From NCBI RefSeq assembly GCF_001447995.1, contig NZ_LDPE01000002.1:248001-312000 (forward strand): 64,000 bases of DNA. The letters run 5' to 3'. A model generated the notes under the pieces. It made no database searches. It was not told where the DNA came from and saw only the letters and a program-made list of their open reading frames with translations. Position 1 is the first letter of the stretch; each line of letters opens with the position of its first letter. Made by a program: the position numbers and the translations under genes. This document shows positions 23,185 through 55,500 of the stretch, one piece after another. Origin of the DNA: Maribacter dokdonensis DSW-8 (lineage in GTDB: Bacteria; Bacteroidota; Bacteroidia; Flavobacteriales; Flavobacteriaceae).

Positions 23185-24165
23185 TTATCTTGTCGTCGAA
23201 AAATCCCTATGTTCTTTCTTCTGTAATTCCTCTGTAGACAACGATTTGAAATAATCGTATACGATTTTTAGTCCTTCTGCCCTATGTACCTTTGGTTCCC
23301 ACCCCAAGATTTCTTTAGCTTTACTAATATCAGGTTGCCTCTGCGTAGGATCATCTTGAGGAAGAGGCTTATAGATAACTTTTTGTTTAGTTCCTGTTAA
23401 TGCTATAATCTCTTCGGCGAATTCCTTAATGGTAGTTTCGTGCGGGTTTCCAATATTAATAGGATCTGTATAATCACTGAATAACAATCGGTATATTCCT
23501 TCTACCTGGTCATCGATATAGCAAAATGAACGACTTTGAGAACCATCTCCAAAAACCGTTAAATCTTCTCCACGTAACGCTTGACCCATAAATGCTGGAA
23601 CCACTCTACCATCGTTTAAACGCATTCTAGACCCATAGGTATTAAATATGCGAACAATACGAGTATCTAGTCCATGATGTCTATGATAAGCCATTGTAAT
23701 GGACTCCATGAAGCGCTTGGCTTCATCATATACTCCACGCGGTCCTATTGGGTTTACATTACCAAAATATTCTTCGTTCTGAGGGTGTACTAACGGATCT
23801 CCATAAACTTCAGAAGTTGACGCCACCAAAATTCTTGCATCCTTTTCCTTTGCAAGTCCAAGTAAGTTTAGCGTACCTAAAGAACCAACCTTTAATGTCT
23901 TAATTGGAATCTTTAAATAATCTATGGGGCTTGCTGGAGAGGCAAAATGCAAAATATAATCCAATTTACCAGAAATATGAACAAACTTTGTTACATCATG
24001 ATGATGAAACTCAAAATTTGATAATGGAAACAAATGAGAAATGTTATTTAAATCACCTGTAATAAGGTTGTCCATCCCGATGACATGAAACCCTTCACTA
24101 ATGAAACGGTCGCATAAATGAGAACCTAAAAACCCTGCAGCGCCTGTTATTAGTATTTTTTTCAT
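23185..24165 (-). CDS. UDP-glucuronate decarboxylase (UDP-xylose synthase)
   Basis: 326 residues, extended short-chain dehydrogenase. NAD motif GAAGFLGSH near the N-terminus, substrate region [25 protein letters not shown] and catalytic YDEAK (Tyr-x3-Lys), followed by [21 protein letters not shown] and [14 protein letters not shown], blocks characteristic of UXS and not of generic epimerases. It oxidises and decarboxylates UDP-glucuronate to UDP-xylose, presumably for the polymer made by the upstream genes. The precursor-making UDP-glucose dehydrogenase is not in the window. Confidence 0.9.
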
Positions 24166-24175
24166 ATTATTTTAG

Positions 24176-25540
24176 TTATATACCTCTTGAAAAAAGAACT
24201 GTAGTTACAGTTTTAAAAATAATTCTTAAATCGAGAGTTATCGAACGGTTTTTAATATAATATAAATCATATTCCAACTTCTTGATAGAATCTTCAAGAT
24301 TCTCTCCATACTTATACTTAACTTGAGCCCAACCTGTAATACCGGGCTTAATAAGGTGACGAGTACCGTAAAAAGGTACTAACGAATTCAACTGGTTAAC
24401 AAAAACTCTTCTCTCAGGTCTTGGTCCAATAAATTGCATATCGCCCTTTATAACCGATAATATTTGAGGTAACTCATCAATTCTAAATACTCTCAATATT
24501 CTTCCAAATGGAGTTATTCTAGCATCATTCTTTACCGCCATCTTGGCCCCTTCCTTTTCAGCATTAACTACCATTGATCGAAACTTATAAATTTTAAACT
24601 CATTTCCATGAAGCCCAACTCTTTTTTGAGTATAAAATAAAGGTCCTCTATTAAAAAAGAAATTCAAAATAAAAACCACCGGAATACAGAACAATAAGAC
24701 CAAACCAACAAAAATCGATAGAATAAGATTCACAATAAAACTAAATATTGTATGTAAATACCTAATTTTTCTATTTCTTAATTGCAATATTTCATAAAAA
24801 CTGTCATTATGAGATTGTATAGGTAATGCTTCATAAGTATTTTCATAAAAAGAAGTATAGGATATAACCTCTTTGCCTTTTAAAATGGATTTTAAAAGTA
24901 GTTTTTCCAAATCATCCGGAAAATCACTATAATTTTTAATATTCACTATCCAAGAGTCGACTTTTTCTGTTGCAACAAAAAACTTATTTCTTATTTCATT
25001 GTGCTGATTAAGATTATATGTCAGTTTTACCTTATAAAAAGTTTCAACATCGCCGCCATCAATAGAAGAGGTTACTTCCCTAAAATGTTTTTCTGTTTCC
25101 TTATCATAAATTAGTAATACATTTTTAGTCGTAGGTATAACTCTAAAAACATTTACAAAGAACAATCTCCAAAGAGCAACTTCTATTGGTGTTAGAATTA
25201 GGAAGACCAGCAATGGAATTCTCCAAAAACTAGTGTCAAAAAACAATACAGAAAATATAAAAACAGTGAAAACAAATAAAGCAGTAATATACAGTGCCTG
25301 TGAAACAACATACTTTCTTTTTAAGGTTTTCTGTAGATTATATAAATCCAAAATGTAAGAAAGCGTTAGAAACGAAAACACTCCAAATACAGTTATTATA
25401 ACCTTTAATTTAAAAGACGCAAATTCAATATCAATAGCATTATTGATAAAAACATTTAGACTTGCTATTATAATAACCAAATCCCCAACTAAGAGAATAA
25501 ACTTACGTTCTATTGAATTTAAAATTGAAGGATTGGGCAT
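24176..25540 (-). CDS. Exopolysaccharide polyprenyl glycosylphosphotransferase (initiating, WcaJ-like)
   Basis: 454 residues. Four N-terminal membrane helices (about 10-115), a soluble linker, a fifth membrane helix (about 268-292) and a catalytic bacterial-sugar-transferase domain (about 300-454) with GPLFYTQKRVGLHGNEFKIY, KFRSM, RIDELPQ, GPRPERRVFV and LIKPGITGWAQVKYKYG. It would transfer a sugar-1-phosphate to undecaprenyl phosphate and so start the repeat unit. It lies near the 3' end of the locus, 10 nt before the UXS gene. Confidence 0.93.
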   Translation of the reverse strand: MPNPSILNSIERKFILLVGDLVIIIASLNVFINNAIDIEFASFKLKVIITVFGVFSFLTLSYILDLYNLQKTLKRKYVVSQALYITALFVFTVFIFSVLFFDTSFWRIPLLVFLILTPIEVALWRLFFVNVFRVIPTTKNVLLIYDKETEKHFREVTSSIDGGDVETFYKVKLTYNLNQHNEIRNKFFVATEKVDSWIVNIKNYSDFPDDLEKLLLKSILKGKEVISYTSFYENTYEALPIQSHNDSFYEILQLRNRKIRYLHTIFSFIVNLILSIFVGLVLLFCIPVVFILNFFFNRGPLFYTQKRVGLHGNEFKIYKFRSMVVNAEKEGAKMAVKNDARITPFGRILRVFRIDELPQILSVIKGDMQFIGPRPERRVFVNQLNSLVPFYGTRHLIKPGITGWAQVKYKYGENLEDSIKKLEYDLYYIKNRSITLDLRIIFKTVTTVLFSRGI

Positions 25541-25563
25541 AACACTAATTAAAGATTCGCAAT

Positions 25564-26700
25564 TTATACTAAATTTTTCCTAATACTTGTATTGCAAAAG
25601 AAAACAGTAAAGAAAATAAAAAAGAAAAGACCTCTTTGCAAATACATAAAATCTTCAATTAAACATAAACTTATTACTAAAACTAAAAAATATTGAAACA
25701 ATGAATTGTTGGTTTTAAATGCTAAATAAATTACATATCCCAACAAACTAGTTAATATAGAAAACCCTAAAAATCCGTTCGACAAAAGTTCTTTTAAAAA
25801 TGAATTATGTGGAATTAGTGTTGTAACCACATCGTTTATTGTAACCGTATGCTTTAAAATATTCTTTTCTCCTATTCCAAATAAAAAATTCTCGTCTATT
25901 ATTTCAACAGATCTTGAAAAAAACACAGTCCTGTCATAATATGATTTTGTTAGTGATTTGAAAATCCATTCTTTAATAAGAAAGAAACCAACCAAAACAC
26001 TTAAAAATAATGGGATTACCAAGACCCTGTAGTTTTTCAATAACAAGAGCGTATTAACTAATAAAAAAATACCCATGGTTAATTTTGAACCTAAAAAAAA
26101 TATAGCACATAATTCAAGTAAAAAAATAAGACCATATAGCGCTTTTAACTTAACATTCTTTAGCCTAAGAAAATTTCTTAACACATATACAGATGAAAAA
26201 ACTATATAAGCACCAATATAAGATCTATGAAAAGTACCAGGAAAATTATTTTCTATTGCCCAAAATAAATAATTGTCAATTTGAACCGTATACCTTGGGT
26301 GCGTATAAATAAAATAGAAATAATAAAGTATACAATATACTATGTAAACTAAAACACCACCTGTAAAAATATCTAAAATAGATTTTTGTATTGACTTTAA
26401 TTTTAATTTATCCTTAATATTAAAAATCAATATTGGAAGAACAGAACAAATAATCTTCACATCATTTATAATAGTGTTTTCAAAAAAACTCCTACCAGAA
26501 AATACCAAGGACAATAAATCAGACAGGAAAAACAAAAGAAACAACAAAGACAAAGAATCAATACCAATTGGTTTTTTTATTAAAAAAAAACAGTTTAAAA
26601 TCAATAAACCTGCAGCAATTGACAATACAATCAAAGGTAAGGGCAAGGGTAAAACTAATGCAAAAATGTAAAACCCAATAAAGTTCTTATCTAGCTTCAT
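25564..26700 (-). CDS. O-antigen ligase family membrane protein
   Basis: 378 residues, 10-12 membrane helices, very AT-rich codons. The long periplasmic loop and the segment FGIGEKNILKHTVTINDV, then PHNSFLKELLSNGFLGF, match the conserved Wzy_C region (O-antigen ligase/polymerase superfamily), where the PHN-F motif is typical. It could be the polymerase or the ligase of the polymer; an EpsG-type protein in the same locus is the other candidate polymerase. The start overlaps the preceding glycosyltransferase gene by 4 nt. Confidence 0.8.
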   Translation of the reverse strand: MKLDKNFIGFYIFALVLPLPLPLIVLSIAAGLLILNCFFLIKKPIGIDSLSLLFLLFFLSDLLSLVFSGRSFFENTIINDVKIICSVLPILIFNIKDKLKLKSIQKSILDIFTGGVLVYIVYCILYYFYFIYTHPRYTVQIDNYLFWAIENNFPGTFHRSYIGAYIVFSSVYVLRNFLRLKNVKLKALYGLIFLLELCAIFFLGSKLTMGIFLLVNTLLLLKNYRVLVIPLFLSVLVGFFLIKEWIFKSLTKSYYDRTVFFSRSVEIIDENFLFGIGEKNILKHTVTINDVVTTLIPHNSFLKELLSNGFLGFSILTSLLGYVIYLAFKTNNSLFQYFLVLVISLCLIEDFMYLQRGLFFFIFFTVFFCNTSIRKNLV

Positions 26701-27782
26701 AAACTATCATAGATTCTAAGCAGTTTTGTCATTATTTTTACATTTGAAAAATGAGAGATTACTCTTTTTTTTGCATTTTCTCCCATTAAATCAACCAATT
26801 GATTATCAAAAGACAATTTATCAATAGCCTGAGCTAATTCTATTATATTGGAAGGTTCAACTGTAATTCCTGTAACATTATCAAGACTCACAAAAGGGAC
26901 CCCAGTTGGCAAATTAGTATTAATTACAGGTTTGCCATAAGACATCGCCTCCAATTGAATAATCCCAAATGCTTCACTAGCAGCAATTGAGGGAAAAACG
27001 AAAAACAAACATTTTTTTAATAAATTCCGTTTCTCTTCTTCACTGACAAATTGATTTATAAACTTGATTTTTCTTGTGGATTTATTTTGATACTTTGTGA
27101 TCAACTCCACTATATCTTTATCTCCATCACCTACTATAAATAGTTCTTTTCTTGTTTTAGCTTTCAAATAGGCTTGTAATAAGACATCAATACCTTTGTA
27201 GTACGAGAGTCTTCCTAAACATAAAATATACTCTCCTTTTGATAACTTTTCATCTATTGGATTCAAATTAATCCCTAAAGGTAATATTGATACTTTATTC
27301 TCAAATTTTTTCAAAACCTTCGAGAATTTAAGCAAATTAGGGGACGTTGTAGTTATAATAGATGCTTTCTTGCATAAATGTGATTGAAAAACCTCTACAA
27401 GTCGTTTTAAAGATTTTTGCTTTATAATATCACTGTGCCATGTAACAACAATCTTTCTCTTACTACTAATAAACAACGAAAGTAAAGATGCCAATGGAAA
27501 CGGTTCGTGAAAATGAAATAAATCATGAGATTTATATAATTTGAAGAAATGATAAAAAAAAGAAACTGAAAGTGGCATAGACATAAAAGTTCCAAAAGAA
27601 GAACACCTCACTATTTCAACCCCATCAATATTTTCCTTTACCGTCTTAAAAGTAAAATTTTTATGAATACACAAAACCTTGACCTTGTGTAGATTTTTTA
27701 AAGCTTGAGCGTATTGACTTACTACAGTCTCCACACCCCCAATATCTGGATAATAATATTTATTTACTTGTAAAACCTTCAA
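26697..27782 (-). CDS. Glycosyltransferase family 4 protein
   Basis: 361 residues, GT-B fold. N-terminal MKVLQVNKYYYPDIGGVETVVSQ (the G-G-x-E loop), C-terminal nucleotide-sugar domain with ILCLGRLSYYKGIDVLLQAY and the EX7E region EAFGIIQLEAMSYGKPVI. A retaining glycosyltransferase acting on the lipid-linked repeat unit at the cytoplasmic face; donor and acceptor cannot be read. It overlaps the upstream gene by 23 nt and the downstream gene by 4 nt. Confidence 0.9.
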   Translation of the reverse strand: MKVLQVNKYYYPDIGGVETVVSQYAQALKNLHKVKVLCIHKNFTFKTVKENIDGVEIVRCSSFGTFMSMPLSVSFFYHFFKLYKSHDLFHFHEPFPLASLLSLFISSKRKIVVTWHSDIIKQKSLKRLVEVFQSHLCKKASIITTTSPNLLKFSKVLKKFENKVSILPLGINLNPIDEKLSKGEYILCLGRLSYYKGIDVLLQAYLKAKTRKELFIVGDGDKDIVELITKYQNKSTRKIKFINQFVSEEEKRNLLKKCLFFVFPSIAASEAFGIIQLEAMSYGKPVINTNLPTGVPFVSLDNVTGITVEPSNIIELAQAIDKLSFDNQLVDLMGENAKKRVISHFSNVKIMTKLLRIYDSL

Positions 27783-28881
27783 TACCTTTATTAATATATA
27801 ATTCTATTAATTTATTAACATGAGAATCTATAGAATATGAATGCATTTGATTCAAATTTTTAATTAAAATCTCTGATTGTTCAACAGATCCTAGTTGATC
27901 TATAGCTAATTGAAGTTTACTAACAAGACCTGCTATATCTTTTTTAGAAAACAAATATCCTGTTTCAAAATCTTTAATTAAATCAATATTCCCATTACAG
28001 TTAGATGCAATTACTGGTATTTTGCTTAGTCCAGCCTCTATTATTGAAGTTGGCAAACCTTCTGACAAGGAGGTTGACAAATATAAATCAAAATTATGTA
28101 TATAATTACCCGCACTAGGCATATCCCCCCACAAATACACCCTATCGCTACATTTTAATGATTTAATTGTACTTTCCACTTTTTCCTTATACAATATATC
28201 ACCATCTAAAAATCCGCCCATAATATGCAAAGCCGTATCTTGATTGTTCAGTAATGCAAAGCTCTTTAACATTGTAACAATGTCCTTGACAGGGTCTATT
28301 CTAGATAAGCTTACAATGTTAATTTTATATTTATCTAAAACACCTTGTAATTCACTTGGTAATTGCATTTTAGAAATGTCTACTCCATTACCGATTACCG
28401 TTACCTTTATATCATTCACCCCAGTAGTCTTTAAATACAATTCTTTTTCAGAATGACTAACTGCAATAGCCTTTACATAACAATAAGAAAATAATTTTTC
28501 AAAAAGCATATGAAATGTATGTCTAATTCCAGAATACTTAATATGAAATCCCCTAAACGTATAATAAATATCTACCTTATAGAATATATAAATTAAAAAC
28601 GCATAAAATGCCCCGCCTTTACCATTAGCATGTATAATATCAGGCTTGACATTTTTTACTGTTCGGAGCAATTTAAGATACGAGCTTAGTTTAATACTAG
28701 TTAAATTTACATCAAAGCTATCATCAGTAGCTTCAACATATTTGTTAAACAAATTTCCATCAATATTGCAGGCAGCAGCATAATTGCGAATTTTATCTTT
28801 ACTTCCTTTAATGAATCTTAAAACATTTACCGGGGCGCCTCCTATTTTATACGCAGGAAATAGATGAAGTACCTTCTTCAT
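27760..28881 (-). CDS. Glycosyltransferase (GT4-like)
   Basis: 373 residues, GT-B fold. MKKVLHLFPAYKIGGAPVNVLRF at the start, then VTVIGNGVDISKMQLP at the domain border, NIVSLSRIDPVKDIVTMLKSF and the late SEGLPTSIIEAGLSKIPVIAS, the EX7E acid pair of GT4. Sugar specificity is unknown. The start overlaps the EpsG gene by 4 nt, part of a chain of coupled genes. Confidence 0.9.
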   Translation of the reverse strand: MKKVLHLFPAYKIGGAPVNVLRFIKGSKDKIRNYAAACNIDGNLFNKYVEATDDSFDVNLTSIKLSSYLKLLRTVKNVKPDIIHANGKGGAFYAFLIYIFYKVDIYYTFRGFHIKYSGIRHTFHMLFEKLFSYCYVKAIAVSHSEKELYLKTTGVNDIKVTVIGNGVDISKMQLPSELQGVLDKYKINIVSLSRIDPVKDIVTMLKSFALLNNQDTALHIMGGFLDGDILYKEKVESTIKSLKCSDRVYLWGDMPSAGNYIHNFDLYLSTSLSEGLPTSIIEAGLSKIPVIASNCNGNIDLIKDFETGYLFSKKDIAGLVSKLQLAIDQLGSVEQSEILIKNLNQMHSYSIDSHVNKLIELYINKGIEGFTSK

Positions 28882-29915
28882 AGAAAATATTCTAAGTTAG
28901 CATTTATGTACTTATAATTTTTTAGCGCTAGCATAATAGCAGCTAATAGAAACAATAGTATTCTGGTTACCATTTCAGATTTTTTAATTAAATATGCCAA
29001 CAAAAAACCTTCAACAGCTATGAAGTAATAAGTAATTCGTATCATATAGGAAAAACTATTTAAGAAAAAATTGAGCGATATTCCAATTATGAACAAGTTC
29101 AATAAAAACGAATATTTGGGATCGTTGATTTTTTTCTTTTCTGTAATAAAAATAATAGATATTAAAATATACCAAATTTGAATAGGAGAAAAACCTACTC
29201 TTTCCATTTTAGAAGCATAATTCAAAAGTTTCGAAAAAATAAATTCTCCCCAAAAAAAGCTGAACCTGACAGCAAATTGAAATACCTCAATTAAGGATAT
29301 AAAGACAAATAAAAATGAAATACCAAGTATTGCTAAAAGAGTAGTTCTTTTGATTTTTAAATCATATAACCACCAAACCGGTAAAAATATGATGACCGAA
29401 ACATGAAATGTTGCAGCTAAGATGATACATATAAAAAACGAAGTCTTCTTTCTTTCTATCACATAATGAAGTGAAAAAAGACCTATTCCAAGTGCCATTG
29501 CTTGTCTAATCTGATTTGCTTCAAGCGATAAAAAATACGTTCCAAACAACACAAATGCTGTGACCAAAGGCAATGGGGATAATTTATGGGCCGCTTTTAA
29601 TTTTAAACTTACTGAAATGAAAGCAATACAGAATAAAAAGAAAATTTCATTATTATAAATTTTTTTAATCAACGTTGAAATATATAAAAAGCCCAAGTCC
29701 AAACCGTCATAACCCTTTACCCTTTTGCCAATATCATTGAAAAATGTCAAGTAAATTTCAGTATCAACACCATGGCTTCCTCTTATAGTAAGCACAAAAA
29801 CTATAGCTATAAAAGCAATGAATATTAATCCCTTAATTCTTTTATTTAAAATCGTTTGGAGCAGAGAATTTGAAAAAAAATATAAGTAAAGAACAATGTA
29901 ATTTATCATGTGCAA
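28878..29915 (-). CDS. EpsG-family polysaccharide polymerase (Wzy-like)
   Basis: 345 residues, about 10 membrane helices. Family features are the early RGSHGVDTEIYLTFF, the middle SLEANQIRQAMALGIGLFSL and the ATFHVSVIIFLPVWW segment, all as in EpsG proteins that link repeat units in the periplasm or at the outer face of the inner membrane. It is the most likely polymerase of the locus. The start is either M1 or M3 (MHMINY); the family does not decide it. Confidence 0.82.
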   Translation of the reverse strand: MHMINYIVLYLYFFSNSLLQTILNKRIKGLIFIAFIAIVFVLTIRGSHGVDTEIYLTFFNDIGKRVKGYDGLDLGFLYISTLIKKIYNNEIFFLFCIAFISVSLKLKAAHKLSPLPLVTAFVLFGTYFLSLEANQIRQAMALGIGLFSLHYVIERKKTSFFICIILAATFHVSVIIFLPVWWLYDLKIKRTTLLAILGISFLFVFISLIEVFQFAVRFSFFWGEFIFSKLLNYASKMERVGFSPIQIWYILISIIFITEKKKINDPKYSFLLNLFIIGISLNFFLNSFSYMIRITYYFIAVEGFLLAYLIKKSEMVTRILLFLLAAIMLALKNYKYINANLEYFL

Positions 29916-29919
29916 TAAT

Positions 29920-31005
29920 TTACATGTTCAGTATTAAATCTTCATATCTGCTTACAATAGAAGTTATACCATATCTTTGATTCACTTCTTCGCTAATTTT
30001 ATCTTTTGAATGGTCTTTAGAAAGTATCTTGTTACAAGTTCTTTCTAATAATTCAGAATTTTCTATATCTATAATTTGACCAAAAATTGGCTTATTTATA
30101 ATTTCATTAATACCGCCTTTATAATTGTTTGCAATAACCGGAACATCACAGATGAGAGATTCTAAAACAACGTTTGGAAAACCCTCAAATCTAGAACTTG
30201 AAATGAATATTGATGATTGTGATATGTATTTATAAGGATTATCTTGAAAACCAAGTAACGAAACATGTTTCTCAATGTTTAATATTTTTAATAATTCAAT
30301 TAACTCATTCTTTAACTTACCTTTTCCAATAATAGAAATATGATATTTATCTTTATCCTCAAATTTCGCAAAAGATTTAAAAAGCAAATCATATCCTTTT
30401 TGATAAGTTAAACTACCTACAGATATTAAATTAATTTTGTCTTGAGGAAGCAAAACGCTTGTAGATTGCTTAAGACTTTGTATATATTTTAAATCAACTG
30501 GATTATTAATTTTTACAACTTGATTTTCTTTTAAATTTCTTACAAGATTTTTTAGATCTATCTCCATATCATCACTTTGAACTATAATTTTGTCAAAATT
30601 CTTATAAAACATTTTATAAAAAAGAATCGTGATTCTATTATGATTGCTTTTGCTTACAATATTAGATTCTCTACCAATTACCTTAACATTTCTTGGAATT
30701 AAAAAAGAAACAGCTGATATCATTGCATTCAAGTGACCCAATGTAGATAAAACTATGTCCGGTTGTTCCTTTCTGATAAATTTTATGATTGGATAAATCG
30801 AATAACGAACTCTTGACACTTTTAAATCATGTATGGAAATAGTTGGGTCCTCCTCAATCTGAGGCAAAAACTCACCTTCTTTTTTTAAGAGACACAAAGT
30901 AACTTCAAACTTATCTTTATTGAAATACTTGCACAAATTCATGAAAACCCTTTCAGAACCGCCTCCGCCAAGTGATGGTAGTAAAAAAACGACTCTCAGT
31001 TTCAT
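29920..31005 (-). CDS. Glycosyltransferase (GT4-like)
   Basis: 361 residues from the ATG at 31005 (MKLRVVFLLPSLGGGGSERVF); a start 24 nt further upstream (31029) would overlap the flippase gene by 17 nt and adds residues not seen in the family. Motifs are GGGSERVFMNL, DLKYI at the domain border, INLISVGSLTYQKGYDLLFKSF and SRFEGFPNVVLESLICDVPVI (EX7E). Donor and acceptor unknown. The gap to the EpsG gene is 4 nt. Confidence 0.88.
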   Translation of the reverse strand: MKLRVVFLLPSLGGGGSERVFMNLCKYFNKDKFEVTLCLLKKEGEFLPQIEEDPTISIHDLKVSRVRYSIYPIIKFIRKEQPDIVLSTLGHLNAMISAVSFLIPRNVKVIGRESNIVSKSNHNRITILFYKMFYKNFDKIIVQSDDMEIDLKNLVRNLKENQVVKINNPVDLKYIQSLKQSTSVLLPQDKINLISVGSLTYQKGYDLLFKSFAKFEDKDKYHISIIGKGKLKNELIELLKILNIEKHVSLLGFQDNPYKYISQSSIFISSSRFEGFPNVVLESLICDVPVIANNYKGGINEIINKPIFGQIIDIENSELLERTCNKILSKDHSKDKISEEVNQRYGITSIVSRYEDLILNM

Positions 31006-31012
31006 ATTTATA

Positions 31013-33226
31013 TTATTTTCTATTATCAACTGGCAACGTTACCAACTCACCTAACTTGTAATCCCACTCTTTAGGAATAATCGGTCTAAAACCAGAGTCA
31101 TGATTAAAAGTAATCTCACCAAAATATACTTTAGTATCATCTAATGAATAAAAATCAACTCTTACATACGGAAATGCGTCACTTAAAACTCTTGCTAATT
31201 CAATCATGACGTCTAAAGTACTGGGTCGAGGAATATTTAAGTTGTTTGGTAATGTTTCTCCTCCCGTCTTCAGCTTAGTAGACCAATGAAACTGTGTTCT
31301 TTTCCAATTTATATCATACCAATTTCTAGAATGATTCTGCTTACCTCGGTCTACATCTAACTGTATATATTTGGGTTCACCTTTAAAACAATGAATCTTA
31401 TAATCTTCAGGTATTCTTCCATTCTTTGTAATTAAAAGCTTTTCAACTAAAATTTTTGGTGGTATGTTCTTGTATTGCCATTCTTTTGATTTGTAGTAAA
31501 AATTAGACTTTAAGCTTTTTGAAAAAAAACGCCTAAGTTCATTCCAATCATTAATATCATTTTTATCCTTTACTATTTTATAACTTCCAGAATCATGGTT
31601 TGTTTTTATAATAAACGGCTCCTCTGGTAAATTTTCATAATTTATATCATTGACATTTTCTGTAACCAAAATTAAAGGAACTAAATACTCTGCACCAACC
31701 CTATCCGCCACATAATCTCTAACCGCAATTTTATCGGCACATATAGTATGTAAGGGTGTTCTATTATAGAGTTTTAGCCACTGTATTTTTTCATTTAAGG
31801 TTCTTGGATTGTTTAAATCCAAATCATAGCCCATTCTTCTTTTAAAACGGTTTTCGGTAAAAGCCTTTTCTTTAACAATTCTATGCCTATAAAAGTCAAA
31901 CAGATAAACTAAAGGTTTTGCTAAGTAGCTAAAAGAGCCTCCACCATAATAATATTTGCCCAATTTTGATCTAATGCCCATGGATATAAGATTGTATTTA
32001 ATTGCTAGATAATAGCGATATAAAAATTCAAAAATATAAACAATAAACACTACTAGAACAATATACTTGAAAGTTATTTGATTTAAGAAGTACAATAGAA
32101 CGATTAATATCAAATAAAACACAGATGACATTAGCATTGTATGAAAAAGTAGTTTAAACTTATCAAATACTATAAAACAATTTCGCGCTAAAAAAACAGA
32201 TAACGTAAGAAATAATGAACTAAATAAAAATAGCCGAATTTCTTTCTCATTATTCAACTCTTCAATATTCAAAAAATGAAAAATCTCTGTTAAAAAAAAT
32301 TGTGTAACTACTACCATTGATAATACTAACAAAAAGCTGTAAAAAGCAACCTTTTTAACAAAACCCATGTTTAAATCTTTTGCAACCTTTGGATAAATTG
32401 CTCCATTTATAGCCTCTATTGGCTGCGTTATAAAGGAAATAAGTTTAATCGAAATATCATACAAAGCTACTTCTTGCATTCCTAAAAAATATCCAACAAT
32501 AAATACGTTAAAACGATCCTTAATAGAAATAACAAAGGTTGATGCAAAAAGATAAAAACTACTTTTTAAGTAAAAAAAGTACTTATCCCAACTGTATAAT
32601 TTTAAAGTAACTTTTTCATGATTAAACATTACATATAACCCAATTAGACCACCAACAAATGCACCAATTCCGAAAAAAATAGGCACGTTCAAATAATCCG
32701 CAGCACTTTTAATGGTTAAAAACATTAAAACAACGAAAACAATTTTAACTGACACATTGATGATAACTATGTATTTCATTTCTTCTATCCCTTGGAAAAA
32801 CCACTTTGGAAAAAGAATGAAATTAAAATTCAAGGCGTAAAATAATAAATACAAGATTTCATCTCCTTTAAAGAAAGGAACGTTTATAACCACTATGAAA
32901 TAAATAAAGAATACTATTATACCAAGAAATAGCCTAATTGGAACAATGCAAGAAACAATTTCAGATAACTTTATTATATCTTCTCTATAAATAGAAACTT
33001 CCTTTACTGCAAATCGGTCAAATCCAAAATCAATAAATAATGACAAATAAAGCGCTAAAGATTGAGCTAGAACTATTTTTCCCCATAATTCTAACCCGAA
33101 CATATCAATTAAAAAAGGGTAAATTATAATGGGAAAAAAAACATTGAATATTTGTAGTAAGGTTAAATAAGAAAAATTTTGGACAATGTTGTTATATTTG
33201 TCTAATAAAATTTTGAACTTTTTCAT
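31013..33226 (-). CDS. Wzx-like flippase fused to TupA-like ATP-grasp domain
   Basis: 737 residues in one open frame. Residues ~1-420 are a polytopic MATE/MVF-type oligosaccharide flippase (about 12 helices; FPIIIYPFLIDMFGLELWGKIVLAQSL, FIDFGFDRFAVKEVS, FPKWFFQGIEEMKY). After a short basic linker, residues ~450-737 are a TupA-like ATP-grasp domain: RRMGYDLDLNNPRTLNEKIQWL, ADKIAVRDYVADRVG, PFIIKTNHDSGS, PEDYKIHCFKGEPKYIQLD and VRVDFYSLDDTKVYFGEITF. ATP-grasp proteins of this type sit in capsule loci and are thought to act as ligases or modifiers of glycans. Normally these are two proteins; I found no stop or frameshift at the joint. Confidence 0.85.
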   Translation of the reverse strand: MKKFKILLDKYNNIVQNFSYLTLLQIFNVFFPIIIYPFLIDMFGLELWGKIVLAQSLALYLSLFIDFGFDRFAVKEVSIYREDIIKLSEIVSCIVPIRLFLGIIVFFIYFIVVINVPFFKGDEILYLLFYALNFNFILFPKWFFQGIEEMKYIVIINVSVKIVFVVLMFLTIKSAADYLNVPIFFGIGAFVGGLIGLYVMFNHEKVTLKLYSWDKYFFYLKSSFYLFASTFVISIKDRFNVFIVGYFLGMQEVALYDISIKLISFITQPIEAINGAIYPKVAKDLNMGFVKKVAFYSFLLVLSMVVVTQFFLTEIFHFLNIEELNNEKEIRLFLFSSLFLTLSVFLARNCFIVFDKFKLLFHTMLMSSVFYLILIVLLYFLNQITFKYIVLVVFIVYIFEFLYRYYLAIKYNLISMGIRSKLGKYYYGGGSFSYLAKPLVYLFDFYRHRIVKEKAFTENRFKRRMGYDLDLNNPRTLNEKIQWLKLYNRTPLHTICADKIAVRDYVADRVGAEYLVPLILVTENVNDINYENLPEEPFIIKTNHDSGSYKIVKDKNDINDWNELRRFFSKSLKSNFYYKSKEWQYKNIPPKILVEKLLITKNGRIPEDYKIHCFKGEPKYIQLDVDRGKQNHSRNWYDINWKRTQFHWSTKLKTGGETLPNNLNIPRPSTLDVMIELARVLSDAFPYVRVDFYSLDDTKVYFGEITFNHDSGFRPIIPKEWDYKLGELVTLPVDNRK

Positions 33227-33261
33227 TAATTAATTTTTCATTGTAACCCTCTTAAAAAAGA

Positions 33262-34032
33262 TCAATTAATCCTACTATTTTTTGGTCTAGAAGCAAGATA
33301 AGCTGTGTTATTATCAAATATAAGGACCTTATTTGAAAGCTTTTTGTCATTTATTATCTTTACTGCAAACTGGTACCAAGTCATTTCAATTTTATCGGTA
33401 AAATGGTAAACTCTATATTTAAATTCATTCAACTTTATTTCCCCAATGATAAATTCACCCAAATTCATAGCATTTGTGGGATATCCTAATTGAGTATTAG
33501 AAATTCTAAGAATATCATCTGTTTTAGCCTTCTTCAGAATAGTAGTATAAAAATTCTTGCCAAATTCAGAATACAACCAAGATGTTCTTATAATACAATA
33601 GTTGTCCATTATTTCTTGAATATGCTTTTCACCTAGTAATTTAGATTTACCATATTCATTAATTGGGTTAGGCACATCCTTTACGGTATACGGTTCATCC
33701 TTTTCACCATCAAATACATAATCGGTAGAAATGTGTATTAAGGTCGTATTATAACTTTTACAAACATTGGCTAAATTCTTAACACCTTCTGCATTTACCT
33801 TATAAGCAATATCTGGTGTTTTCTCGGCTTGTTCTACATTTGTGTATGCGGCGCAGTTAATACAATAATTAAAATTGCCCTTTACAAATGCTTCCTCTAT
33901 TCCTAAAATATCAGTGATATCTAACTCCTTGGAACTTTTAAATATAACATTCAATTCGTTATATGATGGAGCTATTTTTTGCAAACATTGACCTAGTTGC
34001 CCATTGGCTCCTGTTACTAATACTTTCTTCAT
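33262..34032 (-). CDS. rfbD: dTDP-4-dehydrorhamnose reductase
   Basis: 256 residues, somewhat shorter than the usual 280-300, the difference being at the C-terminus. NAD(P) motif GANGQLG, then NCAAYTNVEQAE, ISTDYVFDGEKDEPY and catalytic YGKSK (Tyr-x3-Lys), RTSWLYSEFGKNF and the terminal SRPKNSRIN. It performs the last step to dTDP-L-rhamnose. It overlaps rfbC by 4 nt; the next gene (flippase fusion) begins 35 nt later and shows much lower GC. Confidence 0.93.
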   Translation of the reverse strand: MKKVLVTGANGQLGQCLQKIAPSYNELNVIFKSSKELDITDILGIEEAFVKGNFNYCINCAAYTNVEQAEKTPDIAYKVNAEGVKNLANVCKSYNTTLIHISTDYVFDGEKDEPYTVKDVPNPINEYGKSKLLGEKHIQEIMDNYCIIRTSWLYSEFGKNFYTTILKKAKTDDILRISNTQLGYPTNAMNLGEFIIGEIKLNEFKYRVYHFTDKIEMTWYQFAVKIINDKKLSNKVLIFDNNTAYLASRPKNSRIN

Positions 34033-34574
34033 TTTTCTAAATCTTTGAAACTAGGCAGAAGCATGTCTTTCTTTGATACGGTCAGTTCTGAAATCGGGTA
34101 GCTCCAGTCTATTCCTAAATCTAGATCACTATATAAAATGCCCGATTCCAATTCAGGGTCGTAATAATTATCACATAAATAAGTGAAAATTACTTCGTTG
34201 GTAAGTGTTACAAAACCATGGGCCATACCTTTTGGTATAAAAAGACTTGTGCGGTTTTTATCAGATAGATTAACCTTGATATGCTGTCCAAAAGTTTCAC
34301 TGTTTGGTCTTAAATCTACCACCACATCTAATACTTCTCCTCTTTGGACGGAAACTAATTTAGCCTGTGCCCCTAGTCCTTTTTGGTAATGCAAACCACG
34401 TAAAACCCCTTTCTTGGAAATAGAGGTATTTTCTTGGACAAAGTCAATATTATGGCCTAAAAAAGCCTCCAATTCCTTTTTTCTGAAAACCTCAAAAAAC
34501 ATCCCTCGTTCATCTGAATAAATTTGGGGTTCCAAGATTAAACATCCTTTTAGTTTTGATTCAGATATTTTCAT
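34029..34574 (-). CDS. rfbC: dTDP-4-dehydrorhamnose 3,5-epimerase
   Basis: 181 residues, the usual RmlC length, cupin fold. Signature VLRGLHYQ with the catalytic histidine, [23 protein letters not shown] and the tyrosine-containing [13 protein letters not shown]. It epimerises dTDP-4-keto-6-deoxyglucose. It overlaps rfbA and rfbD by 4 nt each, so the rml genes are translationally coupled. Confidence 0.96.
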
Positions 34575-35431
34575 TTAATCAGGCGCATTAAATATTCTCC
34601 GTATCCACTTTTTAATAACGGCTCAGCTAACTTTTCTAGTTGTTTTGCATCAATAAAGCCTTGGGTATATGCTACCTCTTCTATACAACCTATTTTTAAT
34701 CCTTGACGTTCTTCTATTACTTGCACAAACTGAGATGCGTTCATTAAAGAACTAAAGGTGCCCGTATCTAACCAAGCAATTCCTTTATCAAGAACACTTA
34801 CTTTCAAGTTACCTTTATTTAAGTAAGCGATATTTACATCTGTAATTTCCAGTTCTCCTCTTTTGCTAGGTTTTATTTGCTCTGCGATCTCTACTACATT
34901 ATTATCGTAAAAGTAAATTCCCGGTATAGCATAATTTGATTTAGGAATTTGAGGTTTTTCAACAATTGAAATAGCTTTTCCAAATTCATCAAATTCAACA
35001 ACACCATATCTATTTGGATTATTTACATGATACCCATAAATTATACCACCTTCTGGCTTAGAATTTTCTTTTAATAATTTTTCCAGACCATTACCGTAGA
35101 AAATATTATCTCCTAAAACTAGAGCAACCTTACTATTACCAATAAATTCCTTACCTATTATAAAAGCCTCTGCCAAACCCTTTGGTTCTGGCTGAATAGC
35201 ATATTGAAATGTACAACCCAATTGTTTACCGTCTGACAGTAGTTTTTTGAATAACGGTAAATCATCTGGTGTAGTTATTATTAAAATTTCCCTTATTCCA
35301 GCAATCATTAGCGTAGATAACGGGTAATAAATCATTGGCTTATCGTAAATTGGCATTAACTGTTTACTTAATGCTTTTGTTAAAGGCCAAAGTCGCGATC
35401 CCGTACCTCCTGCAAGTAAAATTCCTTTCAT
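34571..35431 (-). CDS. rfbA: Glucose-1-phosphate thymidylyltransferase
   Basis: 286 residues, full length. The nucleotide-binding start [16 protein letters not shown], then [27 protein letters not shown] with the metal-binding aspartate, and the product-binding VEKP and LDTGTF segments. It makes dTDP-glucose from glucose-1-phosphate and dTTP, the first step to dTDP-rhamnose. The order in transcription is rfbB-A-C-D with near-zero spacing. Confidence 0.97.
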
Positions 35432-35433
35432 AA

Positions 35434-36441
35434 TTATTTGGATTGATACTTTTTTAAATACCAGTCAACTGTCTTCTCTAAACCAGTATGGAAACTTTCT
35501 AAAGCATTCCATCCTAGTTCTTTTTTAATTTTGGATGCATCAATGGCATACCTAAAATCATGACCTAATCGATCATCAACAAACTTAATTTGGTCTTTGT
35601 AACCTCCATTGCTTTTGGGTATTTTTAAATCTATAAATTCACAAATTTTTTCAGCTATCGTTAAATTATCATATTCATTATTTCCTCCCAAAAGGTAGGT
35701 TTCACCATCAACGCCGTTAAAATAGATAAGATCTATTCCTTTACAATGATCCTCTACAAATAACCAATCCCTTACATTCTTACCATTACCATAAATTGGA
35801 ATTTTCAATCCTTTTATAGCTGATCTAATAATTGTAGGAATTAATTTTTCATCATGCTGTTTCGGTCCATAATTATTTGAGCAATTACTGGTGACTACGT
35901 TCATACCATAAGTATGATGATAACTTCTAACCAAAAAATCAGATGAAGCCTTAGATGCACTGTAAGGACTATTTGGCTGGTAATTTGACCCTTCTGTAAA
36001 AAAACCATTTTCACCTAAAGACCCATAAACTTCATCTGTGCTAATATGATGGAATCTATAATTTTCACCTTTCCAATAGTTTCTAGCTGCCTCTAATAAC
36101 GTAAAAGTACCTTCAATATTGGTTTTTATGAATTGCCCTGGAGAGTTAATTGAATTATCTACATGTGACTCTGCGGCAAAATTGATTACGCCTTTTATTT
36201 CATGCTTATGAAATAGTTTTGAAACTAAGGTTGCATCGCAAATATCTCCTTCAATAAAAGTGTAATTAGGATTATTACTTAATTCACTCAAATTGTTTAT
36301 ATCACCAGCATAGGTTAGTTTGTCTAAGTTAACTACTCTAATATTAGGGTATTTCGTTAAAAAGTAAACAATAAAATTGCTCCCTATAAAACCAGCACCA
36401 CCAGTGATTAAAATTGTGTTGTCAGATAGCTGGTCTATCAT
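35434..36441 (-). CDS. rfbB: dTDP-glucose 4,6-dehydratase
   Basis: 335 residues, extended short-chain dehydrogenase. [10 protein letters not shown] near the start, [20 protein letters not shown] with the Thr-Asp-Glu triad of dehydratases, and the catalytic [17 protein letters not shown] is the usual C-terminal block. It converts dTDP-glucose to the 4-keto-6-deoxy form. It is the first rml gene, 3 nt after the Wzz-like gene. Confidence 0.96.
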
Positions 36442-36444
36442 ACA

Positions 36445-37440
36445 CTACATTAAAGATTTTGCCTTCTTATTCAAATAAAGGAGTGCTGAAAAAACGAAGA
36501 AGCCAGAAAGAAGTAATAATGGAATCAACACAATACTCTTCCCAAAAAACGACTTATGCTCTACTTGTGTTTCCCCAAGGTTGATAACACTTACTGGCAC
36601 AGTACGTTCTTCTAGTTCTATTTTTTTGGATTCTATATCTCTGATCAGTCCTGTTTTGTATTCAAAAATATCAGCAATGTTAACTTGCTCTTGGTTATCA
36701 AGAATAATCTTATTAGTTGCAGTACTATTACCTTTGTTAGCTAGACCACTTGTATAATTAACTATAATCTCATCTACTTGTTTTAATAATTTCTCGTCTT
36801 GTTCAATACGATCTTGGGCATTGTTTCTATATATTTCTAATAGCCCGTTAAAATAGGTATTGGAGTTAATATAATCTAAAACCTTTTTTGAAAACTGCTT
36901 ACCAAATGCAGCATTGTTATAATAAAAAGTAATTCTATGGTTGAAAGAGCTTTTGTTTTGTAACTCGGCCCTAACGATATCAGCAATAGCATCTGTATTT
37001 TCAAAGCTTTGAAGCAGTTCTAAATATTTTAAGTCACTTTCAGAATTGCTTACCTCTGCGACTCTACCTATTTCAATTTTTAAACCTGTAAAATCAACTT
37101 CATTTATACCTATGGTATTAAAAAACAAAGTATCTTTCGCTTGTATATTAGATTGTATTTCGGTTACAACATCATATAAATAGTTTTTGCTTTCCAATTG
37201 AGGTTTAACAATGACCTCTGTTTTATACTTTTTAGATATAATTTGATTGAGACCGTACCCAATTGCAAGACCAACAACGACCAGGCCAATAAGTATGAGT
37301 AGATTCTTTTTTAAATAAAGAAATACTCTTAAAAACCAACAAAAAACAGCATTAAAGCCCCTTCCTATTAACTGAAACAATTGCCCTAAGTCAATTTCAT
37401 CTGAATTGTTCTGGGTAGATGGTGATTGATTGCTTGCCAT
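36445..37440 (-). CDS. Wzz-like chain-length determinant / polysaccharide co-polymerase
   Basis: 331 residues. A short cytoplasmic start, a first membrane helix at about 46-66 (KNLLILIGLVVVGLAIGYGL), a long periplasmic part with coiled-coil-like helices (QDRIEQDEKLLKQVDEII, RDIESKKIELEER) and a second helix near the C-terminus (SIVLIPLLLLSGFFVFSALL). This two-helix layout is that of Wzz/PCP proteins that set polymer length. There is no kinase domain. Sequence similarity within this family is weak, so the call rests on topology and place. Confidence 0.75.
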   Translation of the reverse strand: MASNQSPSTQNNSDEIDLGQLFQLIGRGFNAVFCWFLRVFLYLKKNLLILIGLVVVGLAIGYGLNQIISKKYKTEVIVKPQLESKNYLYDVVTEIQSNIQAKDTLFFNTIGINEVDFTGLKIEIGRVAEVSNSESDLKYLELLQSFENTDAIADIVRAELQNKSSFNHRITFYYNNAAFGKQFSKKVLDYINSNTYFNGLLEIYRNNAQDRIEQDEKLLKQVDEIIVNYTSGLANKGNSTATNKIILDNQEQVNIADIFEYKTGLIRDIESKKIELEERTVPVSVINLGETQVEHKSFFGKSIVLIPLLLLSGFFVFSALLYLNKKAKSLM

Positions 37441-39123
37441 TTACGTATTGAATATTTGTTTTAAAATTTTATCTGTAATAAGATATGTTGGTTTTACCCC
37501 AGTAGTTCCTAATCCGCCAGAAGCCAATGTACTACCGGTTTCCAAAGGGTTATCTGATGCATAATATGCATAACGTACTTTTACATCTTCTCCTATACTC
37601 TTTCTAATTTTTGAAGCACTCTGTATTGCTTTTTGGTAATGTACTCCCTCCATTTCCAGTCCAATAACGTTCCATGTAGACTTGTGAAAAAACTTTAGTA
37701 TGTCTTTGTTCTGAAGTGATGTTCCCAACACGGTTACCATAGTCCCTTCAAAAACCTTTAGACCATAACCCTCAAAATCCTTGGCACAAAGTTCATTATT
37801 AAATGGGTAATTATCTGCCGTACCTTCAAATATATGTGCAGATGGAATCATTAAATCTCCCTTGCCGCCTTCTAGTATACCCGCCTTACCCATAATGGAA
37901 ACAGAATCTACGTTAATCAACGACGAACCTCCCTTCTTGGTTACATATGGTTTCAACAACTCGTCTATCGTCTCATAAGCCTGTTCGCCAAATGCGTAAT
38001 CCATTACAAATATAACAGGTTTTTTATCATCTTGATTTTCTGAAAATTCGTACGAGCAGTTATTGGTTTTTATTTTCGCCGTATCAAAAATTTGCACATC
38101 AATATTGGTTCCTGATGTATCATCAATAGCGATCATACCATTTTCTTCTGCCAAATCAATAACCTTTTTTCTTAAAGCAGTGTTCCCAGAACTACTAAGT
38201 GCTTCAAAAATCTCTAAAGAATCAGTATTTGGAAATTCACTCTTTAAGGCTACTTTAGCAAATAAAGAATTCATTACACTGTGCATATTGGCAGAGATAA
38301 TATGAATTGGTCTTTGCAATAAATTATTTTTGGTCAGTACCTCTTTTATATTATTTGCCCATCGTTCACCATGAATATGATGCCCCAAACGCTCTCTTAA
38401 CAATGCACTGAACGTTATGGCTCTTTTTTCACCTGTTATTTCTTCATCTAAGGCTAATTTACCTAACCAATAAATTACTTTTAAAAAACGATCGGGATTG
38501 TCTTTGGTACTGAATTTTTTATACACCTCCAATATCTCTTCAAAGGATCTGCCCAAGATATTAGCGGTATGAATAATGGCAATTTCACGTTCAGATTGAG
38601 GCAATTCATCCTTTTGTACGGCATTTTCAAGCTTGGTCCAATCCCTGATGGTTTTATCTGTATCTGTTATAAGGACCTTTTTACATATTTTCTCAGATTC
38701 AATGAACAAAAATGTAAGGTGAGTTAGAATGTCATAAATATCTGATCGCCCCCTAGTAATTTCAATATTCATTTGCTCCTCATCTATTCGGTAGCAATTT
38801 CTTCTTCTCTTTGGTGGTATTATTGGGTTAATGTGTGAAATACCATACCCTTCATCTGAAGTTAAATTAATAAATGAGCACTGTTCTATACCTTCTGGCA
38901 ATCTTTCTAGGACATAAATGAGTCCGTTCAATTCTGCTTTTTCTTCACCTACGGAACCATATATTTCAGGTCTTAATTGTAGGAGTGCATTTTTTAAAGC
39001 TTCTCCCGATACTCCGTTCGGTTTATAAAAACCTCTATTGAACAAATGGCGCATGGTGATGTACATGCGTTCAATTGCATTTGTTGACTCTTGCGCCCTA
39101 GTAGTTGTAATTGCTTTTCCCAT
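37441..39123 (-). CDS. DUF6909 family protein, unknown function
   Basis: 560 residues, no signal peptide and no membrane segment. It matches the flavobacterial DUF6909 family. The C-terminal third (about 350-560) contains VIFVMDYAFGEQAYETIDELL, SVSIMGKAGILEGGKGDLMI and WNVIGLEMEGVHYQKAI; the last resembles the MEG motif of nucleoside phosphorylases, which binds the ribose, but the fold is not proven. The N-terminal part (RHLFNRGFYKPNGVSGEALKNALL) is not recognised. It abuts the Wzz-like gene with no gap, at the head of the polysaccharide locus. Confidence 0.75.
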   Translation of the reverse strand: MGKAITTTRAQESTNAIERMYITMRHLFNRGFYKPNGVSGEALKNALLQLRPEIYGSVGEEKAELNGLIYVLERLPEGIEQCSFINLTSDEGYGISHINPIIPPKRRRNCYRIDEEQMNIEITRGRSDIYDILTHLTFLFIESEKICKKVLITDTDKTIRDWTKLENAVQKDELPQSEREIAIIHTANILGRSFEEILEVYKKFSTKDNPDRFLKVIYWLGKLALDEEITGEKRAITFSALLRERLGHHIHGERWANNIKEVLTKNNLLQRPIHIISANMHSVMNSLFAKVALKSEFPNTDSLEIFEALSSSGNTALRKKVIDLAEENGMIAIDDTSGTNIDVQIFDTAKIKTNNCSYEFSENQDDKKPVIFVMDYAFGEQAYETIDELLKPYVTKKGGSSLINVDSVSIMGKAGILEGGKGDLMIPSAHIFEGTADNYPFNNELCAKDFEGYGLKVFEGTMVTVLGTSLQNKDILKFFHKSTWNVIGLEMEGVHYQKAIQSASKIRKSIGEDVKVRYAYYASDNPLETGSTLASGGLGTTGVKPTYLITDKILKQIFNT

Positions 39124-52518: not shown

Positions 52519-55500
52519 TTAACGGTATAGGGTAAAGTGTCCAACAAATTCTCTTTCGTCTCTATCGCCATTTAGTTTAACTACGTACCAGTAGTCTCCC
52601 GTTGGCAATTCATTGTCTAAATATGTTCCGTCCCAACCTTCAGAATCAACAGATTGTTCAGAAACCACTCTACCATAACGATCAAATATTTTTATTAGTA
52701 TTTCTGGGTATTGCTCAATATTTCTTGGGATCCATAAATCGTTCTGCCCATCTCCATCTGGGGTAAAGAAATTAGGTATTTCCACGTCTATAAACTCCAT
52801 AAATATATTTGCTACCCTTGAGCATCCATTCTCATCAACTACACGAACTTCATAGGTATCTGTTCTAGTGATATAGAAGGTATTGCTATCGCCATTATCT
52901 ATTCCATCAAAATAATAGGTGTAACCTTCTCTACCACCTTCAACAACAGCTGTTATTTCGTTCATGTTATTTTGTTCCAATGCTAGAGTCAATGGCTCAA
53001 AATCCTCAATTACAAAATCAATAGTTACAAAACACCCGTTAGCATGGGCAATAGTAATGTAATGGTTGCCCGGTGCCGAGTTTCTAAAATCAGGATTCAA
53101 TTGAAGATCTGCAGGGTCCACAGAATCTATTGCGTATAACACATCTCCAATTACACTATCATCTTCTAATGTGATGTTCACAAAATTATCTGGCACATTA
53201 CCCGAACATTCGTAAACAGGAATTACCGTTGCATTAAGGTTTACTCCCGATTCAATATCAACTACAACATTGGTATCACAACCATTGGCATCTTTAATTA
53301 CAATGATGTAATTACCTGCTGCCATATCATAGAATTCAGTTCTGTTCAGTACAAAATCTTCATCGCTATTAGAATTCAACGCTGTACTATATGGTGCCGT
53401 ACCTCCTGAGATATCAAGAATTATAGTACCATCTTGACTATCAACACAAATTTCCGGTGTAGTCTCTACTTCAACAACCAAACTTGATGGTTCAGAAATA
53501 GTATACGTTAAGTATTCAAAACAACCATTTTGGTCTTGAGCTATAACAGTATACTCTCCAGGACCCAATTCTGTAAACGTGTTTTCATCATAGAATTGGT
53601 TCAGATTTGGTGAAATTGCATATTGATAACCACCTGCTCCACCAGATAATGTAACCGTTATTTCACCGTTGTTCTCTCCTTCACAAGTAATATCAACAAC
53701 ATTGTCTGTATAAGAAAGAGGTGTAGGTTCTACAATAATAACCTCTTTTGGTGTTGTTGTACAATCATCACTAACTACAGTTACATAATACGTACCTGCT
53801 CCCAAATCTCTAAACACACCTTGAGATTGTGGACCGGCAATTCTAGAAGCTACGCTTAAAGAACTATCTGTAAACAACTCATATTGGTAGTTACCTAATC
53901 CGCCATCTGCAGTTGCATAAATGATAGCCGTGCTTTCACCTGTACAGTTCAGTACCGCAGCAGAGGTATCAACCGTTAATTCTAAAGCAGGAATCTCACT
54001 TTCTGTAATTGCATTTGAAACTGCAGACTCACAACCGTTAATAGCATCACGTACATAGAATTGATATCTACCGGCAGGATACATACCTGTTTCAGGTAGC
54101 CCTAACGGATTACTGGTCATAGGCAAGAAGTTGACGTTATCAACGCTATACTCATATGTTCCGCTTCCACCTGTGGCAGTAAGTTCAAACTCAGCACCAG
54201 TAGTACAGGTCAATGCATCTGTTCTAATTAAACTTGCCTGTACTTCTGTTGGCTCTCTTACCTCAACAACATTTGTTGTGGTATCACAGTTCCACCCATC
54301 GACTACGGTAACGCTATAGAAACCTGCGCCTAGATCCGTAAAATTAGGATTGGTTTGAACACCAGTCGTTGTAGTAATCGTAGTACCGGTTTCATTATAG
54401 AAATTCAACTGATAGCTATAATTTCCACTACCGCCACCTGTTACATTTGCAGTTACAACCGCTCCTGTATCACCGTAACAAGCTAGGTCTGTTACAAGCG
54501 GAGTTGCATTAGCCACTATAGGTGTTGCTGGCGTTAATGTTTCAGTATAATTTACAATACATCCGGCATCATCGGTAATGCTTATTGTGAAAGCACCCGC
54601 AGCTAAATCTGTAAAGACTCCTTCATTTACATCGTCCATGGTATAAACATCACCAGTTGTAGTGTTGGTCAATACGATATCATAAGGACTATAGCCGCCC
54701 TCTATTTCAACTCTAATAACCCCTTGATCATCTGTACAAGTAGCTTCTGCCAAAGGCGTTATCACACCGCTCAGTGGTCTATCCGGAGAAATTATTGTCA
54801 CCATATTTGTATCTTCAGAACAAAAGGGAACATCTGTTTCTGTAATGGTAACATAGTAGCTACCACCGGATAATCCTGTTATTGTTCTTGGATTAACACT
54901 GGTATCCGAAGCAGTTGCTGCTATAACCGATGCTCCTGCGGCGTTGAACACTTCATAAGTGTAATTTCCGGTATACCCGTCAATATCAATTTCCAAACTT
55001 CCATTGGTATCACCAAAACATGTAACTTCTGTTATAGCCGTTGCCGTAGCAGTTATAAAATCGAACGGAGCAATCGTATAACTTTCCGTATTAACATAAC
55101 AACCCGTATCTAAATCTGTAACTCTAAATACATAGGAACCAACAGTATTTAAATCGTAAGTTGCAGATGTTGCTGTTGTACTAACCAAAGTACCTGTGGC
55201 ATTACCAATTGGTAACAATTCATAACCATAGTTATGTGCCAAACCATTATCAACTACTGAAATTGTTATTCTCTCATCGTTTGTACATGTAATTACGACA
55301 TCTTGAGCTACTGTAGCCGTAAATGTATTTATAGGTTGAATTGTAACGGTATCGAAAGTGGTACAACCATTGGCATCTTTTACGTAAACATCTATGGTTT
55401 GTACGCTTCCATCGTCCGTAACATTGAATGTATTTGACGCTTGGAAAATAACATTATCAATACTGTATAGGTATGGTGCGGTTCCTGTACCTGTACCAGC

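Follow-up and report, generated by a model that had tools for sequence, protein, structure and literature searches.

It has long been asked how Wzx flippases tell that a repeat unit is finished, and a gene fusion is classical evidence for two proteins acting in sequence or in contact. The Pfam family PF14305 presumably takes its name from TupA, a protein of teichuronopeptide synthesis. Teichuronopeptide is a polymer of polyglutamate and polyglucuronate, and TupA acts in its making in Bacillus halodurans C-125, according to the sections consulted of the source (PMC8153356). The sections consulted of two further papers describe Cj1438C of Campylobacter jejuni, which joins ethanolamine-phosphate or serinol-phosphate, with ATP, to the C6 carboxylate of glucuronic acid (GlcA) in the growing chain (PMC11800379, PMC12409886). 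Cj1438C is called TupA-like by the first of these papers itself, and its kinship with PF14305 is that paper's statement (PMC11800379).

Here, we describe a single gene of Maribacter dokdonensis DSW-8 that encodes a flippase followed by a TupA-like domain. The window, i.e., the whole stretch of DNA that was analyzed, comprises 64,000 nucleotides of contig NZ_LDPE01000002.1 (positions 248,001 to 312,000), and all coordinates below are window positions. The protein is a fusion of two known families, and this fusion is genuine, conserved and recurrent. Judged by titles and abstract openings, the literature that we searched describes no flippase-TupA fusion.

Domains and predicted folds of the fused protein

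The fused gene (31013..33226, reverse strand) starts with an ATG codon and encodes 737 aa, with the same one-piece frame present in three further loci (L032, L033 and L070). Its flippase half covers residues 1-415 (31982..33226, reverse strand), where PF01943 matches residues 14-281 (core at 32384-33187) with 105.1 bits against a cut-off of 28.2. The TupA-like ATP-grasp half covers residues 416-737 and the stop codon (31013..31981, reverse strand), where PF14305 matches residues 479-729 (core at 31040-31792) with 191.7 bits against a cut-off of 25, and along positions 1-240 of the 241 in the profile. The domain search with these two families that was proposed in the sequence-only reading, i.e., in the note made earlier from the letters of this DNA, thus places both far over their cut-offs. 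The 737-aa protein had no NCBIfam match at E 0.001, and no sequence match among solved structures at E 0.1.

An AlphaFold2 model built from a 14-row alignment (mean pLDDT 81.8, pTM 0.56) shows two mostly confident halves. Residues 4-420 of this model match MATE, WzxE and MurJ structures, i.e., they have the MOP fold, and the C-terminal half is matched by Foldseek to DdlA, VanA and ArgX with E-values of about 1e-4 to 6e-4 and modest TM-scores, with the nearest solved ATP-grasp folds reaching a TMt of 0.32-0.48 among the best 50 rows. A second structure list (VIA) is filled by the flippase half, residues 4-420 only, and says nothing on the ATP-grasp half. Comparison with the 111 TupA domains that are unfused to a flippase demonstrated that the TupA half carries the consensus residue at 50 of the 51 positions conserved in at least 80% of them, the sole deviation being at position 615 (K in place of N); Lys541 is nearly invariant. 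The fusion therefore joins a full MOP/Wzx flippase to a full TupA-like ATP-grasp domain on its C-terminal side, and the earlier claim that both are complete within one 737-residue protein agrees with Pfam and with the predicted folds.

The joint between the two halves

The joint lies at residues 413-419, with stand-alone TupA proteins starting opposite residue 413 (L077) and opposite residue 419 (L072 of genome G592). It contains an internal ATG (Met416; 31979..31981, reverse strand) that is invariant in the four fusions found in this and related genomes, and in one alignment the fourth residue of the L077 TupA, a methionine, aligns with Met416. A flexible connector, residues 416-449 (31880..31981, reverse strand), is predicted by AlphaFold2 mostly at pLDDT <50, and corresponds in the alignment to the native N-terminus of TupA. 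The four fusion proteins align without gaps in columns 401-600, across the joint. We find that the fusion thus retains the whole of TupA and adds almost nothing; the “short basic linker” proposed previously at about residues 430-450 is TupA's own sequence, matched in the alignment by the N-termini of stand-alone TupA proteins.

In Arenibacter amylolyticus (L077), the source of the nearest stand-alone TupA, the flippase and TupA genes are separate, and two other genes lie between them. In G592 the flippase and TupA genes are neighbours that share a reading frame, interrupted by two stop codons, and a GT4 glycosyltransferase gene comes next, as in the window. The two-gene arrangement of G592 is likely the ancestral state.

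Codon conservation against the same-genus genomes G025 and G015 peaks on the joint (31877-32074, codons about 385-450). No other of the roughly 750 windows taken from 13 syntenic genes (rmlC left out) has a codon identity as high after correction for amino acid (z of 3.3 and 3.8, with a standard deviation of z of 1.15); the two comparisons share one sequence. After multiple testing this signal is marginal, and any one of three causes would suffice for it: translation starting inside the gene, a constraint on the RNA, or a tract of recombination.

Conservation of the fusion in related genomes

Our search for the same architecture, as suggested in the sequence-only reading, identified one joint common to four genomes. 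Among 149 relatives, the one-piece protein is also present in two same-genus genomes, G025 and G015 (Maribacter sp. HyVt-319), at 85% and 83% identity. Croceivirga radicis HSG9 (G634) contains the whole protein at 67% identity, so that at least one of the 397 family genomes besides our own carries the fusion; this search scored up to two candidates per genome, and the fusion count among the matches listed is a lower bound. Gene order is nearly common to all four genomes, running from the chain-length gene through the rml genes, the fusion, and genes for a GT4 glycosyltransferase, EpsG, two further GT4 enzymes, an O-antigen ligase-like protein, the initiating transferase and an epimerase to purD. 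The differences are that G634 lacks rmlD there and that G015 lacks the epimerase gene between the transferase gene and purD; the G025 stretch ends after the initiating transferase.

The same frame in three further genomes rules out an assembly error or a lost stop codon in our sequence. Long frames of other relatives were also rejected as fusions or reassigned: the frame of the candidate 904-residue fusion of G648 is broken by stop codons and an intervening gene, and the long frames of G067, G034 and G014 are, by their starts and stops, stand-alone TupA genes of 309-324 aa.

Using an NG86 (Nei-Gojobori) script, we calculated dN/dS values between G025 and G015 of 0.087 for the flippase half and 0.075 for the TupA half. 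Values between our genome and G025 were 0.041 and 0.023, respectively, with synonymous sites near saturation. These ratios indicate that the fusion protein is under purifying selection; the previous statement that it is unlikely to be debris therefore holds, with dN/dS at 0.02-0.09 and the lower values coming from near-saturated pairs. Relatives with two genes at this place, separated by a stop codon or frameshift, had been named as the observation that would count against a fusion. Such an arrangement was found only in the distant G592, and the 20 same-genus genomes that we compared carry other cassettes at the site.

Recurrence of flippase-TupA fusions

From 114 relatives, we retained 80 TupA loci. 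Of these, 11 (8 Bacteroidales and 3 Bacteroidia) code for proteins of 785-840 residues that carry TupA at the C-terminus. Pfam recognises TupA in 11/11 and PF01943 in 2, below the cut-off. The N-terminal half of one of them, in a model of L126 (pLDDT 80.7), matches MurJ (TMt 0.80), MATE and WzxE, and we therefore assign it by predicted fold as a MOP flippase; the other ten proteins share this N-terminal half in the alignment. Comparing the two groups of flippases profile against profile, with very few sequences, yielded a score of no use (probability 0.1). Several of the Bacteroidales carriers come from ruminant stomachs.

Our TupA tree contains 126 distinct domains, 111 of which are unfused to a flippase (L069 and one of those in L121 being fused to other enzymes), which bears out the earlier remark that the two are usually separate proteins. 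Window-type and Bacteroidia/Bacteroidales fused TupA domains lie far apart in this tree. The L077 TupA groups with the four window-type fusions (support 99, starred), and these four form a clade with support of 89 in the 126-domain tree and 73 in a 47-row subset, neither starred. We applied AU tests to the 47-row subset, using groups that had been defined by their architecture ahead of tree building. A clade uniting the 15 fusions was rejected (p 6e-36), as was a clade of all 11 Bacteroidia/Bacteroidales fusions (p 0.0004), the latter because L114 sits with an unfused Saccharibacteria TupA; a clade of the ten without L114 was not rejected (p 0.40). From these trees, the fusion probably arose two or three times. 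The flippase of L114 is of the type seen in the other ten, so that L114 may represent either a third fusion or a swap of domains. The ten fusions also have an unfused TupA, that of L118, in their midst, and a split may therefore also have occurred. A single ancient fusion that was split many times afterwards is formally conceivable; the flippase halves, however, differ between the groups.

A flippase gene lies directly upstream of at least 8 of the 111 unfused TupA genes, six being recognised by HMM (L072, L119, L130, L136, L142 and L150) and two by Pfam (L145 and L036). No flippase was found directly upstream of the other 103, some of which lie at the end of a contig or stretch, with 10 neighbours scanned with Pfam. 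The fusion is rare in larger genome samples. Across 395 genomes of the phylum, our own fusion is the only flippase-TupA frame over the cut-off, and the only other frame of >370 residues in that sample, in G458, is TupA plus GT4. In 128 genomes from the order to which G265 belongs, nothing matched the Bacteroidales-type fusion over both of its halves. TupA also occurs in other combinations: with the middle and C-terminal domains of Mur ligase and a leucine-rich repeat region (L121:10810-13833, 1007 aa), as the N-terminal part of a 1195-residue protein that also contains a GT4 glycosyltransferase (L069:1971-5558), and with a zinc-ribbon in a metagenome-assembled Methanomassiliicoccaceae archaeon (L117:1322-2686, 454 aa).

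The O-antigen locus surrounding the fusion

All genes of the surrounding locus that we annotated are on the reverse strand. Its left frame is a Wzz-like chain-length gene (36445..37440; PF02706 below the cut-off), followed by rmlB, rmlA, rmlC and rmlD for dTDP-rhamnose synthesis (33262..36441; named by Pfam families and order) and the fusion. Beyond the fusion lie a GT4 glycosyltransferase (29920..31029; Pfam), an EpsG-family protein that is likely the Wzy polymerase (28878..29915; PF14897, 147.5 bits), two further GT4 glycosyltransferases (26697..28881, with genes at 26697-27782 and 27760-28881; Pfam), and an O-antigen ligase/polymerase-like membrane protein (25564..26700; Wzy_C below the cut-off). 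A polyprenyl glycosylphosphotransferase, which initiates the O-unit on its lipid carrier (24176..25540; Bac_transf, and TIGR03025 at 296.7 against a cut-off of 295.55), and an NDP-sugar epimerase/dehydratase (23185..24165; NCBIfam matches all below the cut-off), which we take to be perhaps a UDP-xylose synthase, complete the locus. The fusion thus sits in a Wzx/Wzy-type locus, with the initiating transferase, EpsG and a sub-cut-off Wzz present, and the placement of its N-terminal half in the predicted flippase family has PF01943 over the cut-off, the MOP fold and a locus of this type. Elsewhere in the window, a 3786-aa open frame occupies 52519-63879 (reverse strand).

Next to the chain-length gene is a DUF6909 gene (37441-39123), which 35 of 36 same-genus genomes contain and which adjoins an O-antigen locus in the 20 places examined. 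At 20 same-genus sites beside DUF6909, with fusion carriers excluded, the DUF6909 and chain-length genes are kept in 20/20, the middle differs, and the right flank (epimerase, purD) was reached in 6. The region 23185-37440 of the window, together with L155-L174, is a hypervariable O-antigen locus. None of the 20 sites contains the fusion, and a whole-genome search concurs. For example, G028, the nearest by anchor (98%), has another cassette at the site. A variable middle, with the fusion in none of the 20, indicates that the fusion is part of a single serotype cassette.

Supply of sugar acids

Counting only loci of at least 14 kb, we found a nucleotide-sugar 6-dehydrogenase in 16 of 25 unfused flavobacterial TupA loci versus 4 of 20 control loci (Fisher p 0.006), an excess that is only suggestive, since the control loci are those of the window's site and the TupA loci lie elsewhere. 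Outside the Flavobacteriaceae, 11 of 42 TupA loci contain this enzyme, and the link to uronic acid is therefore not general. Our locus-level search found a 6-dehydrogenase in none of three distinct window-type fused loci (L032, L033 and L070), and in none of seven Bacteroidia/Bacteroidales fused loci (L114, L126, L127, L128, L131, L133 and L143). PF03721 has no match in the window. Our genome does contain a UDP-glucose-type and a UDP-GlcNAc-type dehydrogenase, both outside the window, so that precursors are available, but the genes of the cassette do not tell which acid is used. Among the Pfam-scanned neighbours, neither an amine-supplying gene nor a Cj1435-like phosphatase was recognised. The fusion therefore has no uronic acid supply within its locus of the kind that marks Cj1438-type systems, and the 16/25 count, together with 0/10 for the fused loci, lowers our confidence in the explanation that we prefer.

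Proposed function and alternative explanations

MOP flippases, whether of 12 or 14 helices, have their C-terminus inside the cell, and ATP is cytoplasmic; a fused enzyme should consequently face the lipid-linked unit before flipping. By analogy with Cj1438, a ligase tethered at the cytoplasmic mouth of the flippase is plausible. The explanation that we prefer, to which we give about even confidence, is a bifunctional modification-export protein of one O-antigen/exopolysaccharide cassette, with the ligase held beside the flippase. The polyprenyl glycosylphosphotransferase and GT4 enzymes would assemble the lipid-linked repeat unit on the inner face of the membrane, and the TupA-like domain would use ATP to link a carboxylate of that unit, probably on a uronic acid, to an amine or an amino acid. 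The flippase half would then move the finished unit across the membrane for Wzy polymerisation, and the fusion, by holding the ligase at the flippase entrance, would make modification and export stoichiometric, and possibly ordered. Ligase chemistry and acid substrate are inferred, and so is the coupling to flipping, which makes a good hypothesis rather than a result. A stronger form, which we offer only tentatively, is that flippase-TupA fusions are modification-gated flippases, i.e., that only amidated lipid-linked units would be handed over and decoration would license export.

The halves could instead be independent, chance loss of stop codons having joined neighbouring genes into a neutral fusion. 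G592, with its two genes adjacent in one frame and two stop codons between them, is what such an origin would leave, the flippase-TupA neighbourhood makes accidental joining possible, and the connector is modelled with low confidence; the gapless joint in four genomes, with proteins 67-85% identical to that of the window, and the same domain order with a different flippase in Bacteroidia/Bacteroidales nevertheless make us consider neutrality unlikely. We give still less weight to the idea that the TupA-like half has another ATP-grasp activity, e.g., with a protein or a nucleotide sugar as its substrate, and with the fusion serving for membrane placement. Fused loci without a sugar-acid gene and only moderate similarity to solved ATP-grasp folds would fit it, but the TupA genes of the mapped flavobacterial loci sit in polysaccharide clusters, and the characterised TupA-like domain amidates glycosidic GlcA in the sections consulted of its description (PMC11800379).

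Least probable of all, and in our judgment quite improbable, is that the gene has two products, the long fusion and a free TupA started at the internal ATG, codon 416. This would account for a Met416 that is invariant in the four fusions and within the start range of stand-alone TupA proteins, and for the peak of codon identity on the joint; the bases before the internal ATG, however, do not by eye resemble the A-rich run that precedes the start of the whole gene, the peak is marginal and drawn from comparisons that share one sequence, and the comparison with Croceivirga is saturated.

If the modification-export explanation is true, an amide-type decoration is predicted in the O-antigens of the carriers in the genus Maribacter and of Croceivirga, and in the glycans of the Bacteroidales carriers. 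A recurrent natural flippase-enzyme fusion would also provide a single-protein system in which to study the order of modification versus flipping.

Comparison with known systems

The fusion can be compared with known systems for each of its halves. Solved chains of WzxE and other MOP flippases (PF01943) are listed at 406-608 residues, whereas the fusion adds about 320 residues with the ATP-grasp domain. Our likening of the TupA half to TupA of B. halodurans C-125 is by name, not by sequence, and the sections consulted describe no flippase fusion for the latter (PMC8153356). Cj1438 of C. jejuni HS:2 (GT2 plus TupA-like) is like the fusion in carrying a C-terminal TupA-like domain on a larger polysaccharide-assembly protein, but its partner is a glycosyltransferase, not a flippase, and its chain is grown by polymerising glycosyltransferases rather than from flipped units, according to the sections consulted (PMC11800379). 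Adjacent gene pairs in G592 (L072), Saccharibacteria (L130) and Bacteroidales (L150) encode the same kinds of protein in the same order, but as two separate genes. The 11 Bacteroidia/Bacteroidales fusions (e.g., L126) have the same architecture, a flippase of MurJ/MATE/WzxE-type fold (predicted for L126) followed by TupA, but with another flippase subfamily and a TupA lineage separate from that of the window's group.
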